Source of the DNA: a virus
Reading direction: 5' to 3' (one strand)
Length of the DNA: 29,796 nt
Virus record (IMG/VR): IMGVR_UViG_3300042691_015436
Span: 1 to 29,796 of that record
The translations under genes and the position numbers were made by a program. The notes beneath the pieces were generated by a model. That model did no database searches and was not told the DNA's origin. It was given only the letters and a program-made list of their open reading frames with translations. Shown here in pieces: positions 6,227 through 26,352 of the stretch (within the stretch, counting starts at the first letter, position 1; each line of letters begins with the position of its first letter).

Positions 6227-7192
6227 TTATCCAGTTACCACAAACGTTCCAGTTGAAGTAAACGCATGAATAGTCCATCCCGGTCTAGATGTAGTATCAA
6301 CAGTTCCACCTAGTGCTATTTGTTCGCCAGGATAAGCAATTAAAGCAATACCCGAACCACCATTTTGATTGACATTTGGAACGGCTGGAGATTCTTCCAA
6401 ATCATTTCCGCCGCCAGCACCACCACCGGTATTAGTAAGTCCACCTATACCAGGCTTTCCACTATAACCACCACCACCAACACCACCAGAAGCGCCGCCA
6501 ACTGAACCGTGAGCGCCGCCACCACCACCACCAGCAAAAAATCCTTTCCCTGTAGAAGGCGCAGGTGAATTTGATGCGTCTGTTCCATAACCAGAAAAAT
6601 CACCTAATAATAATCCAAAACCACCAGGACCACCACTTCCACCACCAGATTGATTTCCACCTACCGAACCCGCACCACCACCACCATTATAAGGATCAGT
6701 TAAAGAACGACCGGCATTACCACCTCTATTTCCTTGTGAATCTGTGTTAGCAGTAACACTGTCTGCATATCCAGAACCACCCACACCTTCACCATTACCA
6801 CCACCGCCTATCGCACGTGCAAATTCACCAAATTGAGCAGAAGTGATTGTAGTATTTGATCCCCGACTGCCGTTAGTACCACCACCACCAACTGTAATAG
6901 TATATGTTATTCCAACATTTGCTAAAAATTCAGGACCGTTTATACCTCTCGATGATCCATTTGCATTAGTTAAATTAGTATTCGCACCAAAATACAAAAG
7001 ACCACCAGCACCAGCACCACCACTTCTTTTATTACCAGAAGAACCACCACCCGCAACCATCAAGACTTCAGCAAGTATTGTGGGTGGTATACGTGTAGGT
7101 ACAGACATTCTATCTCTAGATATAACATTTCTAGAAATGGGCAACTGTTTTCTATCAGTCGTTTTAGAAGTTTGAAGTCTACGTTGACTCAT
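6227..7192 (-). CDS. Glycine-rich fibre protein, one polyglycine unit (321 aa)
   Basis: A 321-residue protein. Residues 1-38 are basic and non-repetitive (MSQRRLQTSKTTDRKQLPIS) and may serve for attachment. From residue ~39 a glycine-rich unit begins with ILAEVLMVAGGG, has the middle strand ITYTITVGGGG near 95-105, and closes with GGSGIALIAYPG near 277-288. The last residues read GWTIHAFTSTGTFVVTG, which resembles the opening of a further unit that stops before its glycine part. It is therefore homologous in build to the 1404-residue protein but has one complete unit. No clear ribosome binding site precedes the ATG at 7192. Probably an adhesin or fibre component; the receptor is unknown. Confidence 0.72.
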   Translation of the reverse strand: MSQRRLQTSKTTDRKQLPISRNVISRDRMSVPTRIPPTILAEVLMVAGGGSSGNKRSGGAGAGGLLYFGANTNLTNANGSSRGINGPEFLANVGITYTITVGGGGTNGSRGSNTTITSAQFGEFARAIGGGGNGEGVGGSGYADSVTANTDSQGNRGGNAGRSLTDPYNGGGGAGSVGGNQSGGGSGGPGGFGLLLGDFSGYGTDASNSPAPSTGKGFFAGGGGGGAHGSVGGASGGVGGGGYSGKPGIGGLTNTGGGAGGGNDLEESPAVPNVNQNGGSGIALIAYPGEQIALGGTVDTTSRPGWTIHAFTSTGTFVVTG

Positions 7193-9658: not shown

Positions 9659-12600
9659 TTAATTAGTCTTAGGAATAATTGTTCCAGTTAAAGTCGTTTC
9701 TGGTAAAGCAACCACACGAAGTTGACCAAACTTAGGAACAGAAACCGAACTTGAACCATACAACACGACTTTAATTTGGAAAACACTAAAGTCTCTATGC
9801 GGTCCAGTTCCAGAAGCCGAAGTGTATCTAATTCTATTAGCAGCTACACCAGAATCTTGTTCACCAGGAGCAAACGTAGCCTCAAAATAATCACCTCTAG
9901 ATGTAGAGAAGATATTTTTAGTATCTGAAAGTTCAGTCATCAATAACCAATTGTTATCGTCAAACTTACTTGGATCAGATTCAGCCAATACCTTATACCA
10001 AACAAGAACACCAGAACCAGGTGGACGATATAAATCCATGTAAACACGGAAATCACCAGCGTCAAAACCAGTAGCAAGAGGTACTCTCTTCGTAATGTAA
10101 CGAACGTTCGAATTACCACCTGATGCCTTATCTTCACCATTGTATACAACTGTTGCTGTTACAGGACTACCGCCAGTAGGAGCGGCAACCGTAATAGTAG
10201 GTGAAGTAATGTATAGATTACCAGGATTATCTAGTACGATTTTATCAACGATGCCTGCTGCTGTTACATTAGCATAAGCATTTGCTGTACCATCACCACC
10301 AGAGCCAATAGTAACTTTAGCATTTCCAGTGTATCCCGAACCACTATTTGTGATTTGGAATCCAGAATTTTGTAGAGGTAAATTATTAATTTTGTTTTCA
10401 ATCGTTAATAGATTTAAACGATTAACATCAATCATCGGAGAAATATCACGATTAGTTGATGACAAAATTACACGTAATTGGAATGTACTATTTCCTGTTA
10501 CTGTATTTAATATTCTTCTACCATAGTTATCGACATCAGTTTCATAATCTTCATTTGGAATTATAGGCAGTAATGTATGTTGACCACCAGACTGCATTTC
10601 AGAAATGAATTCATATGAAATGTTAGTATTGGCAATAACAGCATCGGTTGACATAACTTGTAAAACATCGTACACAGAATTTGAAGAGTATGCTGACATG
10701 TCTGCTTCCAAGTAACCATATCCAACTTGATCAGTAAACACACGTTTCTGAATAGCAAACATCAAATCATTTTGCTGATCTGCTGTCCAAACAGAACCAT
10801 TCTGTGATAAGAACAGAGAACCTGTATATGGCTGCTCAGATATCTTTGCACCTCGACCATCTACTGCAATATTTGTGTCATTGATACCCGCAATAAATGC
10901 TTCATATCCTGTACTATTAGACAGAAGAACAAAAGAGTGTTCACCTGGCAATAGTAGAACTGGAATATCAAACTTGAATTCGGTATATCTTGTTGAGTCT
11001 GTAATGCTTGGTGTCAAAGAAATATTAACTTTGTCTGGTGTCAATACTTTTTCAGCATATGGATAAATCTGAGTTGCTGAAGGATATCCATTTACAACAG
11101 GACGAATTTGACATGTTACGGATTCAGTTACATCTTTTGTCTTAAAGCAAACACGAATAGAATCTATAACAACACCTTGTGGATATTGAGCACCATTTAC
11201 CAAGAATGTTTGGGCAAGTGGGTCAATGTATCGAACAAATTCGGTTGTAGTTGTAGTTGATGTATCTGTGTCAGAAGCACGTGTTGTGGCAACAAAACCT
11301 TCTGTCACTTGTCTACGTGTTACGTTTGGCACAAATACAGTTATAGATGTTTCTTGTTTTGTTTGAACAATACCAGAAGCATAGAAACTCGTATCACCAT
11401 TTGTACGTGAGTTTTCTAAGTTACCCACTTCATCATCAATCAGTCTGAACAGTTTTTCACCAGTTCTGAACACACCATCTGGACAGTTGAAGATACCAGC
11501 ACATGCGCCAAATGCATCAGTTTCAAGTAATCCAATAGAGTAATCTGATGTTGTATCTGGTGTTGTAGTTAAACCATCTACAGTAGCAACTCTTGTTGTT
11601 GAATCATATTCTGTAATTGTTCCAGATTGGCCAGCACCAGTATTACGTAAAATATAAAGTTTTTGGCCAACATAATCACCAACATTCAAAGCACCAGCAG
11701 CATTAAATGCTAGGGTAATTGTTTTTACTGTTGAGGAAACGGATGTGCCACCCAATGCTCTTCCAACACGATGATACCAACCAGCAGCACGATAAGTTTT
11801 ACCGGATCTATCACCAACTACCCAAATGCCATTTGTCAACAGTTGATTCCAAGAACCAAATGAATTAAATGCGGTTGGTAAACTTACAAAGTAACCTCTA
11901 TTTCCCGAAGTTAGAACCATACCGGCAGTTCCAATTAAGGTGTCTGATGGCTGTCGTGCTGTATTTGAAGTAGCAGCATATAATTTTACTGTTTCTTGAT
12001 TGGAAAGTGTAGTATCAAATTCTAATTTTGAATTCCAATCTTCCCATGCTATAGATGAATTATCAGGATTTGAAGTGAACGCAAGACTATTTAAAACAGA
12101 AATATAGTTGTCAACTTTTGTGGCATCGAAGAAAGCATGTAATGAAGTAAATGGTTTAAATTTCTCTGCCAGAACAAGAATATTCTTCTGTCTCATGTAA
12201 TGCACAACTGTCAAATCAATTACACGATCACCAAATTGTTGTGTTAGTTGTTGAGGAACAATTTGAGCAAGAACACCTGTGCGTGAAACTTGTAGTCTCT
12301 GTGAAAGTGAAGCACTTACTGTAGTTGTTGTAGTAGTATCTTCAACTAATGCTGCTCTAGTGCCTCGTCCTGTTGCTTCATTACCACTTGCATCAACTCT
12401 ACTTCTTCTTTGAACTTGATCAACATCGGTAACCGAAGCACTAACTTGAAGGCTAGAAGTCCACTGTGTATTCCATGCACCCCATGTTGTGCTTTGAATT
12501 GATGACCATGCATCACGGGCAGCATTACCACCAGTTAAATCAATATTTTGTGCTTCTCTTCGATCATCTGTTTTCCAAACATCAGATGGAGGATCAAGTT

Positions 12601-15600
12601 TAACAGAACCCAAATAATTGATGACATTAAATGGGTTTACATTAATCGCTTTTGATGCTTTATTTTGTTGTATGAATGTGGTGTTTGTAGAAGCAAGTAA
12701 TAATACAGGTCCATTAAATTCTACTTGACTGTTGTTTACCGAACCACTAGAAACTAATCTTGTTGATGCAATATTATAAGAACCTCTACAGACTCTTGTT
12801 ATAATATCGATTGCAGCATTAAAACTAGGATTGGTAATATCAGATCCCGTTTGATCAGAGAATGAATCAACAAAAATACCGTTCTTAGGACGATTGATGC
12901 CATTTGCATCTCGAATTGTACGGTCGTTTTTATTAATGACAGCAAGTTCGGCAATAGACAATGAAGTATACAATTCGAGATTTTGAACACGCTTATCTAA
13001 CTTAGCAATATCTCTCATTGTATATCTACGGTTATTGTAGATATCAATTTGTGTTGAATAAACGTTGTACAGATATGGTGTATATCTTAGTATATACAAC
13101 GTCATAGCATCATCAGGTTCTATTGGAGGAACTGGATTGACGCTTGAAACACCCTCTAATATCTGGAAAGAACGTGACTTAGTTAATACTACACGATCAA
13201 TACGTGGTAAATAATAACCATAATCCGTCACGATTTCAGTTTCGGGTGAAGAAATTTTTGTGCCAATATTAGCCTCATCAGCATCCAATACAAAATTGTT
13301 TGCTGTAAATCTATCAGTCAAACCTAATGAATTGGCATCTCTGCGAACTGGTCTAAAGTCAAGGTAATCAGAAAGTTTATACAAGAAACCATCTTGTGAT
13401 CTATAAATTGGTATTAAACCATAGTCTATACCATCACCACCGTTTTCTTGTGATCCTAAACGTGTGTACGAATCGACATCAAAATAACCAGCACCAGTAG
13501 ATTTAAATCTATCGTAACGAACGAGTAATGGTCCTCTTGGGGGTGTTTGGCCAGGTTTCAGAGTGATCGATGACCAATCATAATATGAATCTTTTTGACC
13601 CGTATCTAAACTATATCTTGAAGTTACGTTGATATAGTTGCCATTATTGTAATTTGCGGTACTAACTGTTTGTCCAGAAAAATCAAAGATAGCATTAATA
13701 GCATATACATCTGAAACAAATAGTGATTGTGGAACACCCTCTCTCTTAACCAAGAAAGATTCTGAAATAACTGTTTGTCCATCAAGAGAAGAGACATATA
13801 CAGAGTTATTTGGTGAACCGAAGATGTTATTTGCTCCACCACCAGCCGGATCAACTAAAATTGTATTTGCTTTGATAAATGTTTTAGTTTTCGATGTTGG
13901 ATTAGAAGCATTAATTGTAGCAAAAACGTTCGCAGTCATGCCTGTAACAGCCTGAGCAACAGTAATTGTACGAGAATTAACATCCACACTTGCTCTATCG
14001 GCAGGTATTGTTTGACCTCTAAAATATGGACTTGTGCTTGGGTCAGCAACAATTACTCTATAATAACGATTGAAAGCATCTTGTGTTGTGGCTGGTTGTA
14101 GCGACTCTCCAGTTCCATATGATAGTGCCGAAGATGTTGTTCCTGTGAACACCACACCTTGATACAGTTTAGTATATGAGTATGAAAAATCTGCCAATGT
14201 ATTATCAGCAACATTACTTTCACCAACTTTAATTAATAGTGGCTCTTTACGTCTTTCTTGAATAGAGAAAGGTTGGAATAATGGTTGATTTTGAGAAATG
14301 CCATTAATACCTTTTGACATATCTTTATTCATGTCACTGATATTTGCTGAAGCAATTCTATGACTTGTAGCATTTATTCTTAATAAAGATTCAGCACTAA
14401 AAATTGTCGTATCAATAATCGATCTCCAATTTGTCGTTGGAGCAGCTGATAATGGCGGATCGATCTGAGCAACATGACCTGATACGGTGCTATACGAGTA
14501 TCCAGGATTAGGACCAGGCACAGTAATAACAGCAGCAGTTGTCAACACAAAAATTAATCCAGTTGTCGTTCCTGCTGTAGTTGTTACACCCGAACCGCCC
14601 GGTGTTGTTGATAGTTGTGCTGCCGTAGTTGATGGGGAACCAATAACATAATATGTTCCGGCAGCTAATCCAGTTCCAGAACCAGAATTAGTGCCAGTTA
14701 TAACTACAACGTCACCAACTCTAGGTGCTTTCGATAAAGCAGTAAATGAAATCTGTCCTGCTGTACCTGTTATTTGAACTGAAGCAAGTGTAAGAGTTTC
14801 AACTCTATCAGCAATAATAGTCGCTGATGTTACACCATTCGTAGCATCAACGAGATATGTCGTTGGATTACTATAACCAATAATTCTACCAGCAAAAGTA
14901 AACGTTAATCCAGTTAAAGGACCCGAAGCAGTTGTAATTGCCGCACCACCAGGTGTTGTTGATAAAGTAAAGTTTCTTGATCCGTCCGTTGATGTGATAA
15001 AATAATTGGTTGCTACACCAGTATATCCAGTAATCGAGCCACTTGTTCCACTTGGGGGATTGCCTGTGATAGTTACAACTTGACCAACTGCCAACGGAAT
15101 TGGTGAAGGAGCACAGAAGAAACTGCCTGCTGATCCCTGAAGAGTATAAGTTAAACCGGTTGGTGTTCCAGCAGTCGTTACAATTGCTGCACCAGTAGCA
15201 TCATCAACTAATGTAAATGTTGTGGTTCCATTGGTTGCTGAAATTCTATATGCTTTGGGGTTACTATAACCAGTGATTGAACCAGTTCCACCAAAAATTC
15301 CTGAAATAACTAATTTTTGACCGACAAATAAACCATCGGTAGTACGTGCTGTACAACTAAATTGTCCTGCTGTGCCAGTAATAGCAACACCTGCTAATGT
15401 CAATCCTGTTGAACCATTACTGGATACTGTTGAGAGTAATTGCGTTCCAGTTTCAGAACCACTAATAGTAATTGATTGACCAGTGTAAATTTTTTGATCA
15501 GAAGCCGCAGTAAAAGCAAGTTGACCAGAAGCGCCAACGATGGTCGCAGCAGCACCAGCTAATGAAGTTGTGGTCGATACAAAACTATCTGTAATTAATC

Positions 15601-17080
15601 TAGAAATATTGTCGGCGGGATCAGTAGTACCACCAACGAATCTAATTGACATACCTTTATAAACACTAGTATTTGTCGCAAAATTTGCTGGCAATAAAAC
15701 TGTACTCTTTGAACCACCAGCCACGTTATAACCATATCCACTATTAGCACCAATAGAAACAGTGTTTACGTCTGTTAGATATATCTTGTACAAGTAGTTG
15801 TTACTGTCTTGTACATTACCAGAAGCAGCATAGAACTTTTCTAGTTTTATTTTTGCAGTTCCAATTGTGGCGTTTGCTAAAATGTTTGTGTTAGCAACGC
15901 CAGTAGAAGTGTAAGGAATCTGTCCCGTATCAATTGCCAAAATCGCCACATTGTCGTATTGATTTGAAGCAAAGTTACCAAAGTAATTATTTGCAATCAA
16001 ATAATATCCATAAGATGTAGGAATTCTTTGATTATTAACGGAAGTAATTTCTCTTGGCTTTGGAACAGTTAAAATAGTAGGTGCTGCTGTTTTAAAATTA
16101 TATCCTCTGATATAAGCATTACCAGCACCCAATGAAATGTTTACACAAGCTGAGTTTGATGTTGTTTCAGTTAATGCAATTTGGAAGTTGTCGATAACGT
16201 AATCGCCAGATTCATCATATGTACGACGAGCAAGTTCATCGACAATCGGTCCGTAAATTGGTGTTTGAATAACTTTTTGAGGTGTACCATCCGAAAATTG
16301 TGCCAATTCAATAAACTTTGTAAGATCGGTACTATCTAGAGCACGACTATCTAGAGTTAAGTTAATCTTATAACGATCAGCACCAGGTGCCTGGAAATTT
16401 GATGAACTCTGTGCGGGATCTAATAAAGATGTATCTTCTGTGTAATCAATGATATCTTCAGATACAACAAAACCAATTAAACCATTACCATTCGCAGAAT
16501 ACTTGCTTACAGCGATAGACTGTGGTTGATTTTGGACAAAAAAACCATCGTAATAAAAAACACCAGATGCTACAGAGAATGCTTTTGAATTACCATAAGC
16601 ATTTGTTGATGCTGCATTTGCATAGTAAGTAATTGCTGTAGGATCACTATTTGATGTATAGATTGTTTCACCGTCAGTAAAAGGATCTCCATATGACTGT
16701 GTAATAATAAAAGTGATCGGCTCACCTCTAGCCTGATTTGCTCCATATGCTTTTAAGACATAGGCACGTTTAGTTCCAGTAGAATTGACAATAATCTTTT
16801 CATTAAAATTATTTGCCGAAATATCAGAACCAGAATAAGTAGATTGAATGTTTATATAATTACAATTTTGAATTGTAATCTGACCACCAGTAACTATCGA
16901 ACCAGTTTTGAAAATATGGTCGCCAAATTTTTTGATTTGATCTTGTAGATTGGTTTGAATTTGTGTTAATTCACGGCCCTGTACAGCAAACCCAGGCTTG
17001 AACAAAGTTCTATAATAATTTTTCTGTGGATCAAAATCATCGTAATAAGGATCAACATTGAAATTCGTAGTTAATGGCAT
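9659..17080 (-). CDS. DUF4815-type giant virion structural protein (2473 aa)
   Basis: The N-terminus has the signature of DUF4815 proteins of marine T4-like phages: YYDDFDPQKNYYRTLFKPGF, then AVQGRELTQIQTNLQDQI, then FGDHIFKTGSIV. Residues ~515-852 hold an array of ~80-residue repeats. Around residues 1350-1500 come conserved segments such as YTMRDIAKLDKRVQNLELYT (a short coiled coil). Residues ~1950-2110 include FVRYIDPLAQTFLV and a beta-sandwich-like IDSIRVCFKTKDV. Near residue 2247 a GSGY-type repeat precedes a C-terminal domain (RVYMDLYRPPGSGVLVWYKV, EATFAPGEQ). It takes the place of gp9/gp10 after gp8, so it is probably a baseplate-to-fibre adaptor; that role is inferred from position. 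A good ribosome binding site (AGAGGAT) precedes the ATG. It is the longest gene in the window, with no visible frame disruption. Confidence 0.82.
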   Translation of the reverse strand: MPLTTNFNVDPYYDDFDPQKNYYRTLFKPGFAVQGRELTQIQTNLQDQIKKFGDHIFKTGSIVTGGQITIQNCNYINIQSTYSGSDISANNFNEKIIVNSTGTKRAYVLKAYGANQARGEPITFIITQSYGDPFTDGETIYTSNSDPTAITYYANAASTNAYGNSKAFSVASGVFYYDGFFVQNQPQSIAVSKYSANGNGLIGFVVSEDIIDYTEDTSLLDPAQSSSNFQAPGADRYKINLTLDSRALDSTDLTKFIELAQFSDGTPQKVIQTPIYGPIVDELARRTYDESGDYVIDNFQIALTETTSNSACVNISLGAGNAYIRGYNFKTAAPTILTVPKPREITSVNNQRIPTSYGYYLIANNYFGNFASNQYDNVAILAIDTGQIPYTSTGVANTNILANATIGTAKIKLEKFYAASGNVQDSNNYLYKIYLTDVNTVSIGANSGYGYNVAGGSKSTVLLPANFATNTSVYKGMSIRFVGGTTDPADNISRLITDSFVSTTTSLAGAAATIVGASGQLAFTAASDQKIYTGQSITISGSETGTQLLSTVSSNGSTGLTLAGVAITGTAGQFSCTARTTDGLFVGQKLVISGIFGGTGSITGYSNPKAYRISATNGTTTFTLVDDATGAAIVTTAGTPTGLTYTLQGSAGSFFCAPSPIPLAVGQVVTITGNPPSGTSGSITGYTGVATNYFITSTDGSRNFTLSTTPGGAAITTASGPLTGLTFTFAGRIIGYSNPTTYLVDATNGVTSATIIADRVETLTLASVQITGTAGQISFTALSKAPRVGDVVVITGTNSGSGTGLAAGTYYVIGSPSTTAAQLSTTPGGSGVTTTAGTTTGLIFVLTTAAVITVPGPNPGYSYSTVSGHVAQIDPPLSAAPTTNWRSIIDTTIFSAESLLRINATSHRIASANISDMNKDMSKGINGISQNQPLFQPFSIQERRKEPLLIKVGESNVADNTLADFSYSYTKLYQGVVFTGTTSSALSYGTGESLQPATTQDAFNRYYRVIVADPSTSPYFRGQTIPADRASVDVNSRTITVAQAVTGMTANVFATINASNPTSKTKTFIKANTILVDPAGGGANNIFGSPNNSVYVSSLDGQTVISESFLVKREGVPQSLFVSDVYAINAIFDFSGQTVSTANYNNGNYINVTSRYSLDTGQKDSYYDWSSITLKPGQTPPRGPLLVRYDRFKSTGAGYFDVDSYTRLGSQENGGDGIDYGLIPIYRSQDGFLYKLSDYLDFRPVRRDANSLGLTDRFTANNFVLDADEANIGTKISSPETEIVTDYGYYLPRIDRVVLTKSRSFQILEGVSSVNPVPPIEPDDAMTLYILRYTPYLYNVYSTQIDIYNNRRYTMRDIAKLDKRVQNLELYTSLSIAELAVINKNDRTIRDANGINRPKNGIFVDSFSDQTGSDITNPSFNAAIDIITRVCRGSYNIASTRLVSSGSVNNSQVEFNGPVLLLASTNTTFIQQNKASKAINVNPFNVINYLGSVKLDPPSDVWKTDDRREAQNIDLTGGNAARDAWSSIQSTTWGAWNTQWTSSLQVSASVTDVDQVQRRSRVDASGNEATGRGTRAALVEDTTTTTTVSASLSQRLQVSRTGVLAQIVPQQLTQQFGDRVIDLTVVHYMRQKNILVLAEKFKPFTSLHAFFDATKVDNYISVLNSLAFTSNPDNSSIAWEDWNSKLEFDTTLSNQETVKLYAATSNTARQPSDTLIGTAGMVLTSGNRGYFVSLPTAFNSFGSWNQLLTNGIWVVGDRSGKTYRAAGWYHRVGRALGGTSVSSTVKTITLAFNAAGALNVGDYVGQKLYILRNTGAGQSGTITEYDSTTRVATVDGLTTTPDTTSDYSIGLLETDAFGACAGIFNCPDGVFRTGEKLFRLIDDEVGNLENSRTNGDTSFYASGIVQTKQETSITVFVPNVTRRQVTEGFVATTRASDTDTSTTTTTEFVRYIDPLAQTFLVNGAQYPQGVVIDSIRVCFKTKDVTESVTCQIRPVVNGYPSATQIYPYAEKVLTPDKVNISLTPSITDSTRYTEFKFDIPVLLLPGEHSFVLLSNSTGYEAFIAGINDTNIAVDGRGAKISEQPYTGSLFLSQNGSVWTADQQNDLMFAIQKRVFTDQVGYGYLEADMSAYSSNSVYDVLQVMSTDAVIANTNISYEFISEMQSGGQHTLLPIIPNEDYETDVDNYGRRILNTVTGNSTFQLRVILSSTNRDISPMIDVNRLNLLTIENKINNLPLQNSGFQITNSGSGYTGNAKVTIGSGGDGTANAYANVTAAGIVDKIVLDNPGNLYITSPTITVAAPTGGSPVTATVVYNGEDKASGGNSNVRYITKRVPLATGFDAGDFRVYMDLYRPPGSGVLVWYKVLAESDPSKFDDNNWLLMTELSDTKNIFSTSRGDYFEATFAPGEQDSGVAANRIRYTSASGTGPHRDFSVFQIKVVLYGSSSVSVPKFGQLRVVALPETTLTGTIIPKTN
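14530..15545 (-). repeat. Tandem ~80-residue repeats inside the DUF4815 protein
   Basis: Copies lie near 15137-15380, 14890-15136 and 14530-14775, with a shorter relative at 15390-15545 and a fragment between the last two full copies. The plan is GTAGQFSC, VGQxVxITG, GSITGYSNPxxYxI, TNGTTTFTL, and GGAAITTxxGxxTGLTFT. Units of this kind are frequent in structural proteins of marine phages. The fragment starting IIGYSNPTTYLVDATNG keeps only the middle of a unit, which points to deletion by recombination between copies. Confidence 0.75.
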
Positions 17081-17090
17081 TTAATATCCT

Positions 17091-18950
17091 CTAAAATCTA
17101 ACAATAAGTCTTATATTTTCTGCTTGTCCATCGTAACGTTGTGTGGCATTGTCATTCTCAATATACACCATGTCTCCACTATACGGTTCAAATTCTGGAT
17201 TACCAGCAGAAACAAGCAGTCGTTGGGTGCTAGAATTTGCTCCAACAACTAAAACACCACTCTCAAATGTACCTTTTGCTCCAGTTATTTTTACTTCATT
17301 TGAAGTTTGATATAAAACAAAACCTGAAGCGGTCGCTGTTGCTGGGCTAGTTCCCTGATATACAAACTCATTTAAGGAATAAGAACCACCAGCAACAAGT
17401 GTCAACAACGTTGTCTGAGAAATTACAGAATTAGCATTTGTTGGGCTGACAGGTAAAGACTCACCATATTTATACGGGTTTACGAAAACACCATACTGTC
17501 TAAACGTAGTGTTTGATGGTACTTTACCACCCTCGGTAGAATCAATTTCACCCATTCTTACACAAACCATTACACTATTTGCTACTAATTCTTTAGCAGG
17601 ATTATTTGCATGGCCATACTTCATGTCCATAATGGCTCTGGCAGTTGCGTTCGATCCTGTGCCGTAAACAAAGACATTTGCACGTGAGTAACCAGTTCCA
17701 ATAGTGGTAACTGTGATTTTTTCTATTCTACTATCTTTAGTGGTTGTTACAGTAAAGACAGCATTTGTATTTGAATTTGATGTAGCAGTAAAGATTGCGT
17801 TGTTCTCATAATATCTCAATGCTGCAACATTTGCTATTGGACTAACTGTGTGAGAACCAGCCGAGTAAATAGTGACGTTTAAAACATGTCCCGTAGAGTT
17901 TACAAAGACACGTGCGTTCGGCAAAGCAAATGAAGTTCTATCAGTTTCTTTTGACGTATTATAAAATTGAATCCAGCTATTTACTGCTGTTGCACCAGAG
18001 TTTACTGTTATAGATGTGACATTGAAGGTTGATGTGTTTATTACCGCAGCTGCGATGGTTGATGTACCATCTCCATCTACAAATACCCTTGTTGTAAGTT
18101 GGGCTGCCGTCTGTGCGGTGTTTCCACCACCAGAACCAGTAGTTCCTGTTGACAATGTAAGTTGTGGTTGGCCATCAACAATTCCAACACTGGTAATGTA
18201 TGATCCTACAGTAATTCCAGTTCCAGAAATTGACATATTGGCAGCAACACCATCAGTGTTGGCCAATGTAAGTATTGTGCATCCAGGTGAAAATGTGTCA
18301 ATAATTCGAATAACGTTTTCTCTATAACCAGAACCTTGATTGGTCATGACTATAGTTGTCAATTCACCATCAATTACGTCTAGAATACTTGAACCATAAT
18401 CTAATTGATTTATTGATGTTGGAACGGGAATCCATTCATCAGTTAAAAATTTATTTGATGGTTTTACATTATACATGTACTTCCAGATATATCCATCGGA
18501 AGTTGCGATGTTACCATTCGAAGATGTGTAATCACCACTTGGCTCTACTGTGGATAAAGCTGATCTGTTGTTCGACAAACATTTATAAACGTTTCTACCA
18601 GATGTTATAACATAAAACGGGTTTACATCATTATCATTATCGGGTTCAATCAAATTTTGATAATCAGTCAGATCATCATACTGTTTGTACTTTTTACCAG
18701 AAACCCAATTAACTCTAGGAATAACTAATTCAACATCATTGCCCGTTATTTTTTTAGCGGCGTACATATTATCCCAGGCTTCTTTTTCATCAAAAATACT
18801 GTCCGTTACGCTTGATGGGCTGGCCTCATTCGGATATTGAGTGTGTTTGCCTATAAAAACATAACCCACTTCTGGTGAAGGTTCATAGAAACCCTCTTTA
18901 AATTGTACAGCGGTAATATACGCTAGTGATTTAGATGTAACTGATGGCAT
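17091..18950 (-). CDS. 8: Baseplate wedge protein gp8-like with repeat insertion (619 aa)
   Basis: The N-terminal ~200 residues match T4 gp8: VGYVFIGKHTQYPNE, EAWDNMYAAKKITGNDVELV, IPRVNWVSGKKYKQYDD, PFYVITSGRNVYKCLSNN, TSDGYIWKYMYNVKPSNKFL. The last ~150 residues also fit gp8, ending DMVYIENDNATQRYDGQAEN then IRLIVRF. T4 gp8 has 334 residues, so residues ~205-465 look like an insertion. They hold two GxGY motifs (~202-213 and ~413-431) and one module (~312-400) that also occurs four times in the gene just upstream. In T4, gp8 is a dimer in the wedge joining gp6, gp7 and gp10. The gene lies between the gp7-position and DUF4815 genes, with 10 bases to the latter. No clear ribosome binding site precedes the ATG. 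Confidence 0.9.
   Translation of the reverse strand: MPSVTSKSLAYITAVQFKEGFYEPSPEVGYVFIGKHTQYPNEASPSSVTDSIFDEKEAWDNMYAAKKITGNDVELVIPRVNWVSGKKYKQYDDLTDYQNLIEPDNDNDVNPFYVITSGRNVYKCLSNNRSALSTVEPSGDYTSSNGNIATSDGYIWKYMYNVKPSNKFLTDEWIPVPTSINQLDYGSSILDVIDGELTTIVMTNQGSGYRENVIRIIDTFSPGCTILTLANTDGVAANMSISGTGITVGSYITSVGIVDGQPQLTLSTGTTGSGGGNTAQTAAQLTTRVFVDGDGTSTIAAAVINTSTFNVTSITVNSGATAVNSWIQFYNTSKETDRTSFALPNARVFVNSTGHVLNVTIYSAGSHTVSPIANVAALRYYENNAIFTATSNSNTNAVFTVTTTKDSRIEKITVTTIGTGYSRANVFVYGTGSNATARAIMDMKYGHANNPAKELVANSVMVCVRMGEIDSTEGGKVPSNTTFRQYGVFVNPYKYGESLPVSPTNANSVISQTTLLTLVAGGSYSLNEFVYQGTSPATATASGFVLYQTSNEVKITGAKGTFESGVLVVGANSSTQRLLVSAGNPEFEPYSGDMVYIENDNATQRYDGQAENIRLIVRF
17750..18015 (-). repeat. 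Copy of the NARVFVN module inside gp8
   Basis: This segment encodes the order VNSWIQF, then NARVFVNSTGHVLNVTIYS, then YYENNAIF, then NTNAVFTVT. The same order occurs four times in the preceding gene at 19039-21171. The DNA is still related (for example acacgtgcgtt within the conserved centre), so it spread by duplication rather than by convergence. Confidence 0.8.
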
Positions 18951-18955
18951 AATTT

Positions 18956-21900
18956 TTAATTAAAGATTGCTGTTTGTAAGTTTGCGGTTTGCGTAAACGC
19001 CCCAGCCTTTGCTGATAAAATAGCATTATCATAAACAACTGTAAATACCGCATTTGAATCAGTGTTTGATGTTGCGCTGAAAACTGAGTTATTTTCAACA
19101 TATCTCAAACCAGAAATATTTGCTATAGGTTCTGTGGTAAATGTTCCTTTAGACGAAACTGTAACATTTATCACATATCCAGCGGTGTTTACATAAACAC
19201 GTGCATTTGCCGAAGATGCCTGTGTACCATAGAAAGTAATGAAACTATTTACTGTTCTTGCTCCAGCATTTGCGGTGACACCAACAACTCCAAAATTATT
19301 TGCTCTAATCGTTGGTGGATAATAATAACTACCATTACTTGTAATTGTTACGTTACTTATTGCCCCACTTGCATTTACTGTGTACGTACCAATTGCTGGA
19401 ATATTAGATTCGACAAAATCAACGTCAATAATTGCTATTGTTTCTGTATTTGCTACACCAGCAGTTGTAAATACAGCATTCGTTAATACATTACTGTTCG
19501 CAGTAAATGCTATGTTTCCAGTATAAAGACCATTTGCTGTTGTTGAAACAACCAAATTGGCCAAGTTACTTGTATTTGAATTAAATGCTAAACCAAATCT
19601 TGCGCCTATCGCAAGTTTGTTATCACCAGCAACTTTACCTTGTGTGACACCATTGAAATGATACAACACAGGACCCATCGTAATCGTAAACACAGCATTC
19701 GTATATGACTGGGTACTAATAAAGAATCCATTGGAGCCGTTTGCTGCCGCCAATCCACCTTCGGCAACTGTGGCTCCATCATTGACATACTTCAAATCTG
19801 TATAAACATTCGCCCCGTTCGGACCACCAATGTTGGTATTTAAATCTGTGTATATGCCATTAGCATATAGTGTTACATTTTGAACATAACCAGCAGTATT
19901 AACAAATACACGGGCGTTTGCTATATTAACAGCGGCATCTGGAGTTCCATACGAGAATGTAATCCAGCTATTTACAGCAACAGCACCAGCATTTGCTGTT
20001 ATAGATTCAACCGCTGGATAGATAACAATATTTTGTCCGTTAGCATATACTCCAGTGCTATTTATTTGTACTCTTATAATCGAACCTGTTCCATTAGCAA
20101 ATACTTGAACGTTTGCTGAACTTTCAGCAGCACCTAAACCAGAGTTTACATTTGAACCACCATTTACAATCTTTAGATAACCGTTAGAATAACCACGACC
20201 ACCAAAGTCTGGAACATAAGGTAGAACTTCTGTGATAGAAACAGGTACACTATTTGCTCTTGCAGTGGGCGCACTTCTATACAGTCCAGCATTTGCAACG
20301 GTGATACTACGAATTACACCGTTTGCTGGATACACTTCAATAGTAGCATTTGCATTAATTACAGGATCGCCACCAGAGAAAACAACATAACCATTACTAT
20401 GACCGACGCCATTAAGTGTTGGTGTGATTGCTGCCACGGAAGTAATGTGAATTGGATATGAGTTTGGTATACCAACTAAGGCGCCATTTGTTGTTGGACG
20501 ATATGCTGGTATAATTGTAAACACAGCATTTGTGTACGAAGAAGTTGATATTGGTGTTGTATTTTCAAAGTAAATTAAATCTGTATAAACATTTGAAATT
20601 TCTGGTAAACTAGAGTATGATCCATTTGCATAGATGGTTACATTTTCAATATAACCTTCTGTATTAACAAACACACGTGCATTGGCAACATTTGCTGTAG
20701 CACTATATCCCAATATTCCTTTTAGATTAATCCAACTATTGACACCAACAGCGTCAGAATTAACAGTAATACCACTCACCAGAGTTGAGTTAGCATATAA
20801 GCCTCTATCACTAATCGTAACTCTACGAATAGAACCATTTGATGGGTACACTTCAACAGGAATAATTGCTCGTTGATTCGTATAATTAAGTGGCGTGATA
20901 GTAAATACAGCATTCGTATATGATGAACCAGCTATAATTGCTGTGTTTTCATAATACGTTGAACTTGTGTATACGTTTGAGATGGACGGTGGAATGAAAT
21001 ACAAACCATTCGAATAAACGGTTACATTTTCAATATAGCCTTCAGTATTAACAAACACACGTGCGTTAGCAAGAACTACGTTACTTGCTCCGACTGTACC
21101 CATATTGCTTGTGAATGTAATCCAACTGTTGACACCGACTGCTCTAGCATTTGCTGTTATCGAAGCAATACCAATATCATTAAACAGCATATACCCATTT
21201 GAGTGAGCAAGTCCAACATTCTGTACGTTTGTTGAGAAGATTACCGTATTTGGATTTGTGTTTGGTAACAATGAAACATTCGATTCATACAGGCCTGAAT
21301 CACTTACAGTAATCGAGTCTGTGTTAATTGCCCCATTACTTGAATATACATTGTAAGATATGCTAGCTTCTCGAAGGGGTGCACCACCAACTGTTATAAA
21401 TTTACCTTTTAAATATCCTTTACCACGATTTGATGAGGATATTGTATTAGCATAGAATACTAAATGCGGATCTTCAAAAGGATCGGCAAATGGTTTGACG
21501 GAATACAAACCACCTGATGTTAATGTAACTCTTCTTAGAGCACCATTTGATGCATAAACTTCAGCATTTGCGATTGCTGGAATACCTTCTTCGGAGTTTT
21601 TAAATAGAATTATACCGTTAGAATATCCAGAACCATTATAACCAGGTCGAATTGAAATATTTGTTATTCTACCGCCACCATTTGAAAATATTAAACTTCC
21701 ATTTGAATATCCAGATCCGCCAGTAACAATATTAATGTTTCTAATATTATCTGTAGTAATCAAGTAAGTATTGCTTATAACTGAATTTACTGTTCTAGTT
21801 TCACCATTAACCGAAATGTTTGAACCGATAGAGAAGATGCCTAAAGATATTGCTGTGTTAAATTTGGTGTTGACACCGGTAACAACAACACTTCCATTTC

Positions 21901-24295
21901 CAACATTTACACGGCCACCAATTGTTTTATACTGATTGTCTGTTGTATGATCTTTCTTTGTTACAATGATATCATCACGCTCTATAGTTTGAGTTGTTTT
22001 ATATTCAGAATAATTAACAAAACCTACAGGGTGTAAAAGTTCTTTTAATAGTTTTTTGTACTTAAAAAATTCAGTTTTTGATGAAATCAAATATGAATAG
22101 TCAACATAATAATCTTGACCTTGTATTTTTCTTTCCGTAGATGAAATAATCGAATCTGATGTTGTCCATCTGCCATCAGTTGAAATATATGATTGCTCAA
22201 TTTCGGCTTTAATTTTTGCCCCAGATGCTTGAGCATTTGAACTTTGAATCGAAAGTGCAGGAATAAATTCATATCCAGAACCGGGATCGACAACATCGAT
22301 TGATATGATTGATCCAATTACACCATTACCAGTGGGCAACAGATTTTCACCATCAGAAGCAATCGATTTTATTTCTACACTTGCTCCTGTACCAGTTGCC
22401 GACTGAACCGAAATTGCAGGGAATTTTCCAGGTACGTATCCAACGCCACCTAGAGGTAAATAATTATAAACACCTAGTTTCTGATTTGTATGTGTTCTAG
22501 TAAATGGATTGGAAGCAACACCATCCACATCTTTAACTGATAAAACAGTATCAGATGTAATCGTAGCAACCATTCTAGAATCACCATTTACATTGATTAT
22601 ATCACCTGGTTTCAGATCATTAAAAAATGAGGTGCCCGTTCCCTGTAGAGTTGATGTTGGTGGTGCACCAGATGTTGATACTGTTCCAGTTATTCTTGAG
22701 TTTGCTAAATCAATTCTTGTGATTTTTCCAGTGCCATCAATTTTACCAACTATAGCAGCTGCACCATATCCAAATGTCATTGGGGGATTTGCACCAAAAA
22801 TGACCTCATCACCAACTACATAATTTTGTCCACCATCATTAATCTTAAAGTCGCCTATTGATCCTAAACTTTTTATTGTTCTAAAACTTGTATTCGGTCC
22901 ATATTCAGCACCAAAAGCATCCAATACAGCTGGTAGATTTAACGGTGCAGTAGTTGAAAGAATCTTAACGTTTGTTATAGGTCCAACTTGTAATGTTGTA
23001 AACGAAAGAGCATCAATAATACGAGTGCTCGCATTTTCACCAGTAGGAATTTTTGAGCTTGAAAAACCGTAATCAGTACAACTGATAAGAGTATTGGCAG
23101 CATTTATACTTCCATTAAATGATGCAATAATATCAGTAGCAATTACAAAACTATTTGCTGAATTTGCGCCAGAAGTATCAATACCATCAACAACGGCATT
23201 GATACCATAAATACCGTTTCCTATAGGAACGATAGGTGAAGAGTTTGTGAATATTGCCCCACCAACATTTACCAAAACACTAGAAAGAACCCCTGTAAAT
23301 ATTTCTGAGACAGTTGCTATTGCATTTGACGTAGCATTCCCACCAAATGCAACTATCTTATCTCCTACAGCGTAACCACCACCAGATTCAATAACATTAA
23401 TTTTTTTAACTACAGAAAAAGTTGAAGCACGAATTTCAATCAACTGTTCATTGGAATCGATGATTGGAATGGATACTATTTCACCATTTAAAAATTCACC
23501 TCTTAATGATTTCAGATTAATTAAGAGTTCAATAGGCAAACCTAAGTTAAAAGTATCAGAAATAATTCTGCGATTTGAATCTTCAACGATTGCTGAAGCA
23601 CCAGACTTCAATCCTGTCACTTTACGATTTGTAAGTAATTTAAAATCAAAGTCTACGTAAGTAACAGAAACTTGTTCACCACCTACTGGTGGTCTAAAGA
23701 AAATGAGTTGTCGATATTCTTTGTTGATATAAAAATCAACAAGATTAATTTTTTCTACACCATTCACCCTTACAATAACATCTTCAGACCCAACAGGCTG
23801 TGCTAATACAAAAATTGTTGTTTTACCGTCACCATCATAAACAGAAGAAATGTCTGCGTTAATTCTAAGTTTATTGTCAACTGTCCATTTACTTGCCGAT
23901 GCTTTTAGAACATTATTTTTAGGCAATACTACTTCAATATCTTCGCCAAAAACTAATTGGAAAAGTAATTTGAAGGAATTTTCAGCACCTTTAGTTTTGT
24001 ACAAATCAACAAGATGTTTGAATAGAAGTGCTTTGTTTGACTGAACATCAGCTGGAATTAATAAACCGTATGTGTTGTAGAAACTTTGTTCAAACTCATC
24101 TATCGAATCATCGACATCTTTAATCGTGCGTAAATTTTTGGCAGCAGTTACCAAATCATTTTTTTCTGTGCCCTGTTTTTGCTCTAAGAATTCGTAGTAT
24201 GCTTCCAAAAACGCAATGAACTTTGGATATTCATCACGTACAAATTCAGGAACTTGACGATTTACAAGTAAAGAAGTTTTTAAATCAGTAGTCAT
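18956..24295 (-). CDS. Large baseplate wedge protein in the gp7 position (1779 aa)
   Basis: The gene lies between gp6 and gp8, where T4 has gp7 (1032 residues). The N-terminus is of a type common in marine T4-like phages: TSLLVNRQVPEFVRDEYPKF, IAFLEAYYEFLEQKQGT, then LFKHLVDLYKTKGAENSFKL and LFQLVFGEDIEVVLP. A second conserved block near 735-765 reads EFFKYKKLLKELLHPVGFVN YSEYK. GxGY-type repeats run between and after these blocks. From ~780 on, almost everything is repeats: SNGxLxF units, VYPSNGxIRRVT units, and four copies of a VNSWI-NARVFVNT-TNAVFTI module (residues ~1041-1134, 1171-1262, 1428-1538, 1668-1752). The long tail may form a beta-rich arm. The gp7 identity rests on position and size and is inference. 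The start overlaps the gp6 stop (TAATG) with no clear ribosome binding site, so translation is probably coupled. Confidence 0.78.
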   Translation of the reverse strand: MTTDLKTSLLVNRQVPEFVRDEYPKFIAFLEAYYEFLEQKQGTEKNDLVTAAKNLRTIKDVDDSIDEFEQSFYNTYGLLIPADVQSNKALLFKHLVDLYKTKGAENSFKLLFQLVFGEDIEVVLPKNNVLKASASKWTVDNKLRINADISSVYDGDGKTTIFVLAQPVGSEDVIVRVNGVEKINLVDFYINKEYRQLIFFRPPVGGEQVSVTYVDFDFKLLTNRKVTGLKSGASAIVEDSNRRIISDTFNLGLPIELLINLKSLRGEFLNGEIVSIPIIDSNEQLIEIRASTFSVVKKINVIESGGGYAVGDKIVAFGGNATSNAIATVSEIFTGVLSSVLVNVGGAIFTNSSPIVPIGNGIYGINAVVDGIDTSGANSANSFVIATDIIASFNGSINAANTLISCTDYGFSSSKIPTGENASTRIIDALSFTTLQVGPITNVKILSTTAPLNLPAVLDAFGAEYGPNTSFRTIKSLGSIGDFKINDGGQNYVVGDEVIFGANPPMTFGYGAAAIVGKIDGTGKITRIDLANSRITGTVSTSGAPPTSTLQGTGTSFFNDLKPGDIINVNGDSRMVATITSDTVLSVKDVDGVASNPFTRTHTNQKLGVYNYLPLGGVGYVPGKFPAISVQSATGTGASVEIKSIASDGENLLPTGNGVIGSIISIDVVDPGSGYEFIPALSIQSSNAQASGAKIKAEIEQSYISTDGRWTTSDSIISSTERKIQGQDYYVDYSYLISSKTEFFKYKKLLKELLHPVGFVNYSEYKTTQTIERDDIIVTKKDHTTDNQYKTIGGRVNVGNGSVVVTGVNTKFNTAISLGIFSIGSNISVNGETRTVNSVISNTYLITTDNIRNINIVTGGSGYSNGSLIFSNGGGRITNISIRPGYNGSGYSNGIILFKNSEEGIPAIANAEVYASNGALRRVTLTSGGLYSVKPFADPFEDPHLVFYANTISSSNRGKGYLKGKFITVGGAPLREASISYNVYSSNGAINTDSITVSDSGLYESNVSLLPNTNPNTVIFSTNVQNVGLAHSNGYMLFNDIGIASITANARAVGVNSWITFTSNMGTVGASNVVLANARVFVNTEGYIENVTVYSNGLYFIPPSISNVYTSSTYYENTAIIAGSSYTNAVFTITPLNYTNQRAIIPVEVYPSNGSIRRVTISDRGLYANSTLVSGITVNSDAVGVNSWINLKGILGYSATANVANARVFVNTEGYIENVTIYANGSYSSLPEISNVYTDLIYFENTTPISTSSYTNAVFTIIPAYRPTTNGALVGIPNSYPIHITSVAAITPTLNGVGHSNGYVVFSGGDPVINANATIEVYPANGVIRSITVANAGLYRSAPTARANSVPVSITEVLPYVPDFGGRGYSNGYLKIVNGGSNVNSGLGAAESSANVQVFANGTGSIIRVQINSTGVYANGQNIVIYPAVESITANAGAVAVNSWITFSYGTPDAAVNIANARVFVNTAGYVQNVTLYANGIYTDLNTNIGGPNGANVYTDLKYVNDGATVAEGGLAAANGSNGFFISTQSYTNAVFTITMGPVLYHFNGVTQGKVAGDNKLAIGARFGLAFNSNTSNLANLVVSTTANGLYTGNIAFTANSNVLTNAVFTTAGVANTETIAIIDVDFVESNIPAIGTYTVNASGAISNVTITSNGSYYYPPTIRANNFGVVGVTANAGARTVNSFITFYGTQASSANARVYVNTAGYVINVTVSSKGTFTTEPIANISGLRYVENNSVFSATSNTDSNAVFTVVYDNAILSAKAGAFTQTANLQTAIFN
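19039..21171 (-). repeat. Four NARVFVN modules in the gp7-position protein
   Basis: Copies lie near 20893-21171, 20510-20782, 19680-20012 and 19039-19290. Each encodes VNSWITF (or VNSFITF), ANARVFVNTxGYxxNVTxY, a linker with NVYT or NISG, and TNAVFTI. The third copy has an extra segment before its TNAVFTI end. DNA similarity is obvious (gtattaacaaacacacgtgc in the first two copies). Shorter SNG-type units lie between the copies. Confidence 0.85.
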
Positions 24296-26352
24296 TATGT
24301 TGCTTGCAGAGTTGTACTAATTGAAGTAGGATCGTTCTCATCAATAGTTATAATATTATTTTTGATTGTACTTAGTATGCCTTCTTCAGACTCTATTGAA
24401 ACTCGAACGTCACCATCAACAGAGTCAACGTCTTTGATTAGAATATTGGATATTGTAACCACACCAGTATCATAATCTATTGATCCGGCGTTTTCATCAA
24501 CAACTTGACGTTGTGCTAGATTATCATAATATACAGTACGAATAGTACCAACACGACCATCAATAACTGCCGTAGCAGATGCTCCATATCCACCTCCACC
24601 TGTGATTGTTACAGTAGCACGTGTGTAGTCGATGCCACGATTAGTAACGTCAATACTTTCAATTCTACCATTGACAATAACGGCAACAGCATTGGCTGCT
24701 TCGCCATCTCCAGATATAGTTATAGTAGGTTGACTAGTATAATCTTGTCCCGGATTGATAACTTTGATTGAACTGATACCAGAAAATGATTGGGGTATTT
24801 CATCAAATTGTACTTGACGATCTATACCCTCAGAATCAGCCACAGTAAACACTGTGGATTCCAATTTGTTTCCAATCGTTCCTCTACGTAGAGGTACGCC
24901 AAAATTTATGGTATAAGGTATAGCAGCTGTCACATCTGGTGTAAATCTTTTTTGTACACGGGTGACAATCGTGCTACCCAGAATTGCATTTCTGTCTACA
25001 GCATCAATAGCATCTTGTACTCTAGACTCGACAAACTTGCCAGAAAATTTATCTAGATATGTTTCTTTGTAACCTAGAATTGCATTTTTAATTGCTGTTT
25101 TTAATTGTTCTTCAGTTAATGAAGTTTTATTTTTGTCGTAGCTAACATCAGCAGAAATCAACAGATATAGAAACTCTGGATCACGAATGATAGTTTGTAC
25201 AGCAACAACTGCTTTGGGTTTAATTATTTCATCAATAATTCTTTGTTTCTCTGTATCTGACAAATAGTAATTTTCTTTTGGTTTCAAAGCAACATATACA
25301 GTACCAAAGGTTGGAGGTGTTTCCTCTTCGCCACCCCAAACTGATACGGAAGTTACGGCAGGATAACTTTTCTGAATATACGTTTCGTAGTCTTTAAATG
25401 TAACCAAACGATTCTGAGTTGTGAACTGCAATGGAGCAGAAAATTTAATATTATCAACTGATTCTCTTTCTGAACCACCGGAGGCCTCACTAACCGAATC
25501 AATTACAAAATCCGATAAAGAGTTTCCTAATGAGTCAGCAAGTGTTGCAGTTGCCACAAAGGTGTTTGCTTTGTTTGCTAAAGTGCCATTTGTAACTAGA
25601 TACGTCACATCAACCACAGCACCGTTATTTAAACTTTGACCGATTACACCGTTTCCAAAATAGATAGCGTACTTTTGTCCACGATTTTCCTGTAAGTAAA
25701 ATACTTTAGAAGTGGTAGTAGTTTCTGATGCATCAACCGCAAGAGAGTAAATACTAAAGTCTGTATTTGTTGAAGATGTTCTGACCGAAACTGATATGGT
25801 AGTCGTATCAATATTTGTATCAGGTAAGACAAACAATTGTTTTGGATTTGTTTGTTGATCATGGGTAAAGGAGTATGTTACCAATTGACCTTCATATATC
25901 GGTAAATTTAAAAACGTAAAATTCGTGTTGGCTTTAGTTGCTGTCTTTTCTTCAAGTGTAACAAAGTTATAACTCACACCATCAATTTCATTTGATAAGA
26001 ATGAAAATCCTTTTGGTATAGTTACAGTAGATTCTGTGTTAGATGCTGTGTTAGCAGTAAAATTAATTGTCGCAACTGGAGCTTTGCGTGAGTAAGGAAC
26101 ATATCCCAAAACTTTAGCATGAGAGATGACAGAATCACGAAGCAGAGCGGTGTCCATGAATGCTTCATTGGCAACCATGTTCAAGTAGTAAGCTTGATAA
26201 TGAGTATTATAAGAAAGAATATCTAGCAGTACACTTAAACCAGAACCTTCAAAGTCATAGTCTGTGAATTCAGATTGTGACTTTAGGTATGTCTTTAAAT
26301 TTTCTTTGATTTGATCAAAATCAAGTTCAGTAACTCTTAGTGGTTCAGCCAT
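24295..26352 (-). CDS. 6: Baseplate wedge protein gp6-like (685 aa)
   Basis: Length and motifs fit T4 gp6 (660 residues). The N-terminus reads DFDQIKENLKTYLKSQSEFT, DYDFEGSGLSVLLDILSYNT, HYQAYYLNMVANEAFMDTAL, LLRDSVISHAKVLGYVPYS, which is the most conserved part of the family. A baseplate-J-type middle follows (VTFKDYETYIQKSYPAVTSV). Residues ~527-607 carry GxGY-type repeats (INPGQDYTSQPTITISG, VTNRGIDYTRATVTITG). The C-terminus (GSIDYDTGVVTISN) is typical of this family. gp6 forms the ring that links the wedges and changes shape when the tail contracts. One base separates it from gp25, and its stop overlaps the next start. Confidence 0.93.
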   Translation of the reverse strand: MAEPLRVTELDFDQIKENLKTYLKSQSEFTDYDFEGSGLSVLLDILSYNTHYQAYYLNMVANEAFMDTALLRDSVISHAKVLGYVPYSRKAPVATINFTANTASNTESTVTIPKGFSFLSNEIDGVSYNFVTLEEKTATKANTNFTFLNLPIYEGQLVTYSFTHDQQTNPKQLFVLPDTNIDTTTISVSVRTSSTNTDFSIYSLAVDASETTTTSKVFYLQENRGQKYAIYFGNGVIGQSLNNGAVVDVTYLVTNGTLANKANTFVATATLADSLGNSLSDFVIDSVSEASGGSERESVDNIKFSAPLQFTTQNRLVTFKDYETYIQKSYPAVTSVSVWGGEEETPPTFGTVYVALKPKENYYLSDTEKQRIIDEIIKPKAVVAVQTIIRDPEFLYLLISADVSYDKNKTSLTEEQLKTAIKNAILGYKETYLDKFSGKFVESRVQDAIDAVDRNAILGSTIVTRVQKRFTPDVTAAIPYTINFGVPLRRGTIGNKLESTVFTVADSEGIDRQVQFDEIPQSFSGISSIKVINPGQDYTSQPTITISGDGEAANAVAVIVNGRIESIDVTNRGIDYTRATVTITGGGGYGASATAVIDGRVGTIRTVYYDNLAQRQVVDENAGSIDYDTGVVTISNILIKDVDSVDGDVRVSIESEEGILSTIKNNIITIDENDPTSISTTLQAT

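Follow-up and report, generated by a model that had tools for sequence, protein, structure and literature searches.

The wedge proteins gp7 and gp8 of phage T4 lie at the periphery of the baseplate, and gp8 is in contact with gp10, gp7 and gp6 (PMC3004832). Immunoglobulin-like (Ig-like) domains of the Big_1, Big_2, I-set and FN3 types, according to the part of PMC9022992 that cites Fraser et al. 2006, are found on phage tail, baseplate and capsid proteins. Here we describe a 29.8-kb viral fragment (IMG/VR record IMGVR_UViG_3300042691_015436, positions 1 to 29,796; this whole stretch is called the window) that carries a T4-like baseplate gene cluster on its minus strand. Two adjacent proteins of the cluster, gp8 and the protein in the gp7 position (hereafter gp7), share a module that we name after its VNSWI motif. 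It seems to derive from a GxGY-type beta-repeat common to gp6, gp7 and gp8.

Both carriers are homologues of T4 proteins, gp7 by virtue of its N-terminus. The window gp8 (619 residues; 17091..18950, minus strand) matched PHROG_438 (expect value, E, 1.3e-72) and T4 gp8 (1n7z), the latter in a profile comparison (E 1.1e-12) and in Foldseek (E 5e-7), with which the profile alignment agreed; the gp8 of PMC10966104 follows a numbering unrelated to the T4-type one used here. The gp7-position protein (1779 residues; 18956..24295, minus strand) matched baseplate wedge families of PHROGs and Pfam, and consists of a backbone of about 850 residues followed by a C-terminal repeat array of about 920. Its residues 10-124 resemble residues 648-760 of T4 gp7 (E 1.3e-5), and the remainder does not align.

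As the preliminary description of this DNA had proposed, gp7 carries four copies of the module and gp8 one, with the motifs in the order given there (gp7 against gp8, blastp E 4e-26). Copies 1 to 4, all on the minus strand, occupy gp7 residues 1043-1140 (20876..21169), 1173-1270 (20486..20779), 1429-1545 (19661..20011, with an internal insert of about 20 residues) and 1670-1767 (18995..19288); the gp8 copy covers residues 311-408. Copy 4 is degenerate and reads VNSFI, NARVYVN, NVTVSS and SNAVFT. The five copies are 41-61% identical in pairwise protein comparisons, and the gp8 copy is 47-52% identical to each gp7 copy over 89-92 aligned residues, well above background. Moreover, gp8 as a query found four separate stretches of gp7 within the window (E 5e-22 to 4e-9). 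On these alignments, the likeness of the five copies is far beyond chance. The module comes in two forms, a short one and a long one, the latter extended by an LRYYEN...TNAVFT tail; its composition is low in charged residues and high in Asn, Ser and Thr.

In gp7 the modules belong to a larger array: residues about 860-1779 (18959..21718, minus strand) form an almost continuous run of beta-repeat units of about 60 residues (SNG units), the four VNSWI modules included. A profile of these units built without the VNSWI copies matched gp7 residues 888-937, 958-1018, 1028-1106, 1123-1185, 1200-1234, 1296-1356, 1366-1433, 1437-1484, 1621-1669 and 1679-1727. The same profile detected all five modules (E 5e-8, 9e-6, 1e-4, 0.008 and 0.04), the best of 500 shuffled sequences reaching E 0.37. 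Compared by hhalign, SNG unit and module scored 55 (E 1e-11), against no more than 15 in 100 column permutations. Judged by these profiles, the VNSWI module is a subtype of the 60-residue repeat of the gp7 array.

GxGY beta-repeats are also present in gp6 (24295-26352, minus strand), at residues 506-615 (24508..24837, minus strand); these are homologous to the native repeat of gp8 (hhalign E 1.3e-13), and the GxGY repeat is found as well in gp7, gp8 and gp14 of cyanophage metaG-MbCM1. The SNG units scored 25 and 24.7 against the gp6 and cyanophage GxGY profiles (E 1e-4 and 4e-5), the permutation maxima being 18.7 and 14.0. A family link of the module to the GxGY repeats is thus likely, if indirect. 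The two carriers had previously been called neighbouring and unrelated: neighbouring they are, but the second term does not hold, since gp6, gp7 and gp8 share a GxGY-type beta-repeat. We know of no paper that names the GxGY repeat as a domain, and a literature search for a phage GXGY repeat returned none.

The gp8 copy is one clean stretch of about 98 residues (residues about 306-403; 17742..18035, minus strand) that is missing at the same place in 31 of 31 aligned relatives. In most relatives gp8 has about 520-540 residues and shares its N- and C-terminal parts with the window gp8. The closest ones, L011 and L015, are 74-81% identical in the flanks and lack the insert at this site. The proposed insertion between conserved terminal parts was therefore confirmed but incompletely described, because the insert lies inside a native GxGY repeat. 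It splits a GxGY unit between the predicted strands at residues 299-305 and 408-416, and the gp8-GxGY profile matched both the upstream half (residues 288-318; 17997..18089, minus strand; E 2.3e-8) and the downstream half (residues 396-443; 17622..17765, minus strand; E 1.6e-19). A second gp8 site, near residue 105, holds a short module in L008, L011, L015, L087 and L090 and none in the window; the gp8 of L109 has a GxGY-like stretch in extra sequence near this site. With two sites in use and the closest relatives differing, the gain or loss of gp8 inserts is quicker than the divergence of the backbone. The structure model of gp8 was good overall but uninformative for the insert, where the predicted local distance difference test score (pLDDT) fell below 50 (residues 308-405) because the other alignment rows do not cover it.

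The relatives in which the module was found are metagenomic contigs, and some of them are probably versions of one phage. Some gp7-position relatives, of about 835-860 residues, lack the C-terminal extension, and others reach 1340-2319 residues. Among near relatives, the module copies sit in the extra C-terminal part of the longer proteins, with up to nine copies in gp7 (L009/L017); in L020, L121 and L148 the module is found in the N-terminal half of gp7. Nor is it limited to gp7 and gp8. In L087-L091 it is present in gp7, in gp8 and in the long protein that follows (phrog_358), and a single module occurs in a small protein beginning MSLWG, of about 221 residues in L019, L021, L119 and L132 and about 223 in L156. 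The only PHROG match of this protein, at its C-terminal end, was phrog_26159, a family of unknown function.

The preliminary description had taken the DNA as still similar and a recent spread by duplication as likely. DNA identity between the copies is 55-64%, and synonymous codons agree as expected from codon usage in 10 of 10 pairs within the window (gp8 copy against copy 4: 21 of 47 codons, 21.5 expected), a test that presumes independent codon choice. The DNA likeness is thus explained by protein conservation. In the tree, copies 1, 2 and 3 each cluster with their positional counterparts in L011, L013 and L015, at identities of 66-70%, 69-75% and 56%, respectively; for the gp7 backbone, identity to these three relatives is 71-72%. 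With counterparts so near to backbone identity, most of the array is at least as old as the split from these relatives. Copy 4 is the exception, being 65% identical to the terminal copy of L008 and 50% to the best L011 copy. Branches near the gp8 copy had modest support (0.72-0.84) in the tree. On the chance-level codon agreement and the counterparts in other phages, a recent duplication in the window genome is rejected. Significant codon excess was found in two relatives, the gp7 and gp8 copies sharing 42 of 60 codons in L087 (29.1 expected) and 34 of 48 in L090 (22.6 expected), so that copying between gp7 and gp8 was more recent in those two. In the pair L036 (3160-7854) and L037 (712-5406), synonymous divergence (dS) was 0.14 between the near-identical backbones of gp7, 0.41 in the array and 0.67 in the module parts. 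A dS higher in the array than in the backbone is expected if the array recombines, and the values suggest exchange of array segments between phages.

Among Pfam and PHROG families and PDB entries, the latter compared by sequence and by fold, nothing matched the module copies convincingly, in agreement with the preliminary description, which knew of no described function for the module. Three candidates were rejected because the other copies lacked them: FKBP_C (E 9e-4, in one of 40 module rows), phrog_31253 (E 5e-5, in two rows) and phrog_1980 (E 7e-5, in one row). No Big, I-set or FN3 profile of Pfam matched gp7 or gp8 up to E 1, and Ig-like families gave isolated chance-level matches among the 40 rows. 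A tblastn search of isolate phages with copy 1 and the gp8 copy, with the low-complexity filter on, gave no match up to E 1, isolate phages being matched by the N-terminus of gp7 only; the sequence-pattern matches in cellular genomes were not confirmed. A model of a gp7 segment with two modules was all-beta (mean pLDDT 68, predicted template modelling score 0.43, strands of module 1 mostly at pLDDT 76-94), and the module is accordingly predicted to have a beta fold. In BFVD, the best named Foldseek match (E 5.9e-4) was the gp14 neck protein of a cyanophage; cyanophage proteins that contain GxGY repeats were among the matches, from E 5.9e-4 upwards and with low TM-scores.

Across eight phage pairs, the ratio of nonsynonymous to synonymous divergence (dN/dS, by a simple Nei-Gojobori count) was 0.06-0.22 in the array and 0.03-0.22 in the backbone. 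The array behaves like the backbone, so that the modules are being maintained; by this count, the array is under purifying selection. Read from the sequences, the homology of the copies, the gp8 insertion, the array structure, the variable copy number, the presence of several carriers and the recent copying between gp7 and gp8 in two relatives are equally firm. For a patchy, mobile beta module that varies in number and evolves under purifying selection, surface decoration is the best explanation, with a use like that of phage Ig-like domains. We therefore propose, at roughly even chances, an exchangeable virion-surface beta-repeat that decorates the baseplate periphery and is added by recombination among repeats, genes and phages. 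The shared element would be an all-beta module of about 95 residues, a specialised long subtype of a repeat family present in several tail proteins. In gp7 it would form a C-terminal tandem array appended to a complete wedge protein of about 840 residues, and in gp8 a single copy would be inserted in register into a beta-hairpin of the native GxGY repeat. Recombination between repeats, whether inside one structural gene, from one to another or between phages, would create copies and relocate them, and these would settle at positions that tolerate an extra bead, such as the C-terminus, hairpins and loops. Exposure at the surface may be expected from the position of the T4 proteins. Decoration of the baseplate edge, which the preliminary description had listed among its options, is kept as the best functional guess: by analogy, the modules may serve in decoration or adhesion, giving more reach, weak multivalent contact with the cell surface or a stabilised rim, with no role in core assembly.

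Some observations weigh against this proposal. Compared directly, the VNSWI module is only marginally similar to the GxGY profiles (their scores were reached by 1, 1 and 8 of 100 permutations), so that the two are linked by way of the SNG units as intermediates. The two-module model, itself of moderate quality, had no PDB match at E <= 0.001. Selection is purifying and not diversifying, unlike that on an adhesin in pursuit of receptors. Finally, the length variation of gp7 was traced to the array for part of the changes only.

The alternative that survives best is that the array is a host-binding adhesin, made of carbohydrate- or envelope-binding modules whose number tunes avidity. The highly variable copy number (nine in L009), the residue composition, the predicted beta fold, the peripheral location in T4 and the apparent recombination of the array are all compatible with it. 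Nevertheless, the modules matched no carbohydrate- or receptor-binding family or structure, and their dN/dS is as low as that of the backbone; we consider this explanation possible but improbable.

Another possibility, which we find unlikely, is a homotypic zipper, in which the gp8 copy pairs laterally with the gp7 copies, through edge strands or whole modules, and so joins gp7 to gp8 and to adjacent wedges in an outer belt; this belt would reinforce the baseplate or gate its change from hexagon to star. Indeed, the carriers touch in T4, gp8 contacting gp7, gp10 and gp6 (PMC3004832), modules are present in L087-L091 on gp7, on gp8 and on the long protein after it, and purifying selection would be in keeping with such pairing. 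However, a partner would have to lie elsewhere for each of the two gp8 sites, in many relatives the gp7 array has modules and gp8 has none, and the module also occurs in the small MSLWG protein, which is neither. Somewhat more doubtful still is the reading that a phage lineage employs one interchangeable beta-module for coupling or adhesion on gp7, gp8, the long protein and the small protein alike, building an outer belt round the baseplate and re-tuning it by transfer of this one domain from gene to gene. Mostly neutral growth of the repeats by recombination, tolerated without specific function, would fit an extension that ranges from absent to about 1500 residues among relatives and repeats that recombine, but is very improbable given that the array dN/dS of 0.06-0.22 matches the backbone and that copies 1-3 kept their positional counterparts in L011, L013 and L015 despite 25-45% protein divergence.

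Baseplate wedge proteins tend to be regarded as conserved machinery. In these phages their outer parts act as exchangeable decorations, and a repeat array under purifying selection can bring a wedge protein to almost three times its length. Domains travel between adjacent structural genes of a T4-like baseplate in environmental phages, with codon-level evidence of recent copying between gp7 and gp8 in two relatives. The module profile may be of use in annotating the large 'hypothetical' extensions of aquatic myoviruses.

Besides gp6, gp7 and gp8, the cluster comprises genes with wedge and tail family matches, a gp5-like protein, a gp25-like protein and, following gp8, a PHROG_358 protein of 2473 residues (9659-17080, minus strand). 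The latter has internal repeats of its own, of another type and apparently in tandem (GSITGYSNP...TTFTL...ITTTAGTPTGL), and its residues about 2239-2304 resemble phrog_460, a profile that likewise hits gp6 and gp7 in their GxGY regions. Glycine-rich stretches, VVGGGGGGGG and VAGGGSSGNKRSGGAGAGG, occur in two proteins encoded downstream of the baseplate genes (1328-5542 and 6227-7192, minus strand); stretches of this kind are seen in the tips of phage tail fibres and adhesins.

Compared with T4 gp8, which has 334 residues and about 49 of them at the place in question, the window gp8 has about 297 there (residues 179-475), and this extra sequence contains both the GxGY repeats and the module. 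The GxGY repeats of cyanophage-like T4 relatives (PHROG_438, 460, 701 and 3465) are found in the same set of proteins (gp6, gp7, gp8 and gp14) and are likewise arranged in tandem. They also share the order of elements with the module: a hydrophobic strand, a Gly-rich turn, an A-x-A-x-V strand, an NG turn, an I-x-x-V-x-V strand and G-x-Y-x-x-P. The module differs in that its first turn reads VNSWI and in that the long form adds the tail of about 35 residues. Unlike the phage Ig-like domains, the module has no significant Ig or FN3 profile or structural match, it is of tandem-repeat origin, and no frameshift arrangement was seen. It resembles them in that virion proteins of several classes have acquired it as an extra beta domain, either terminally or in inter-strand loops, and in its mosaic distribution and, as we infer here, its position at the surface.

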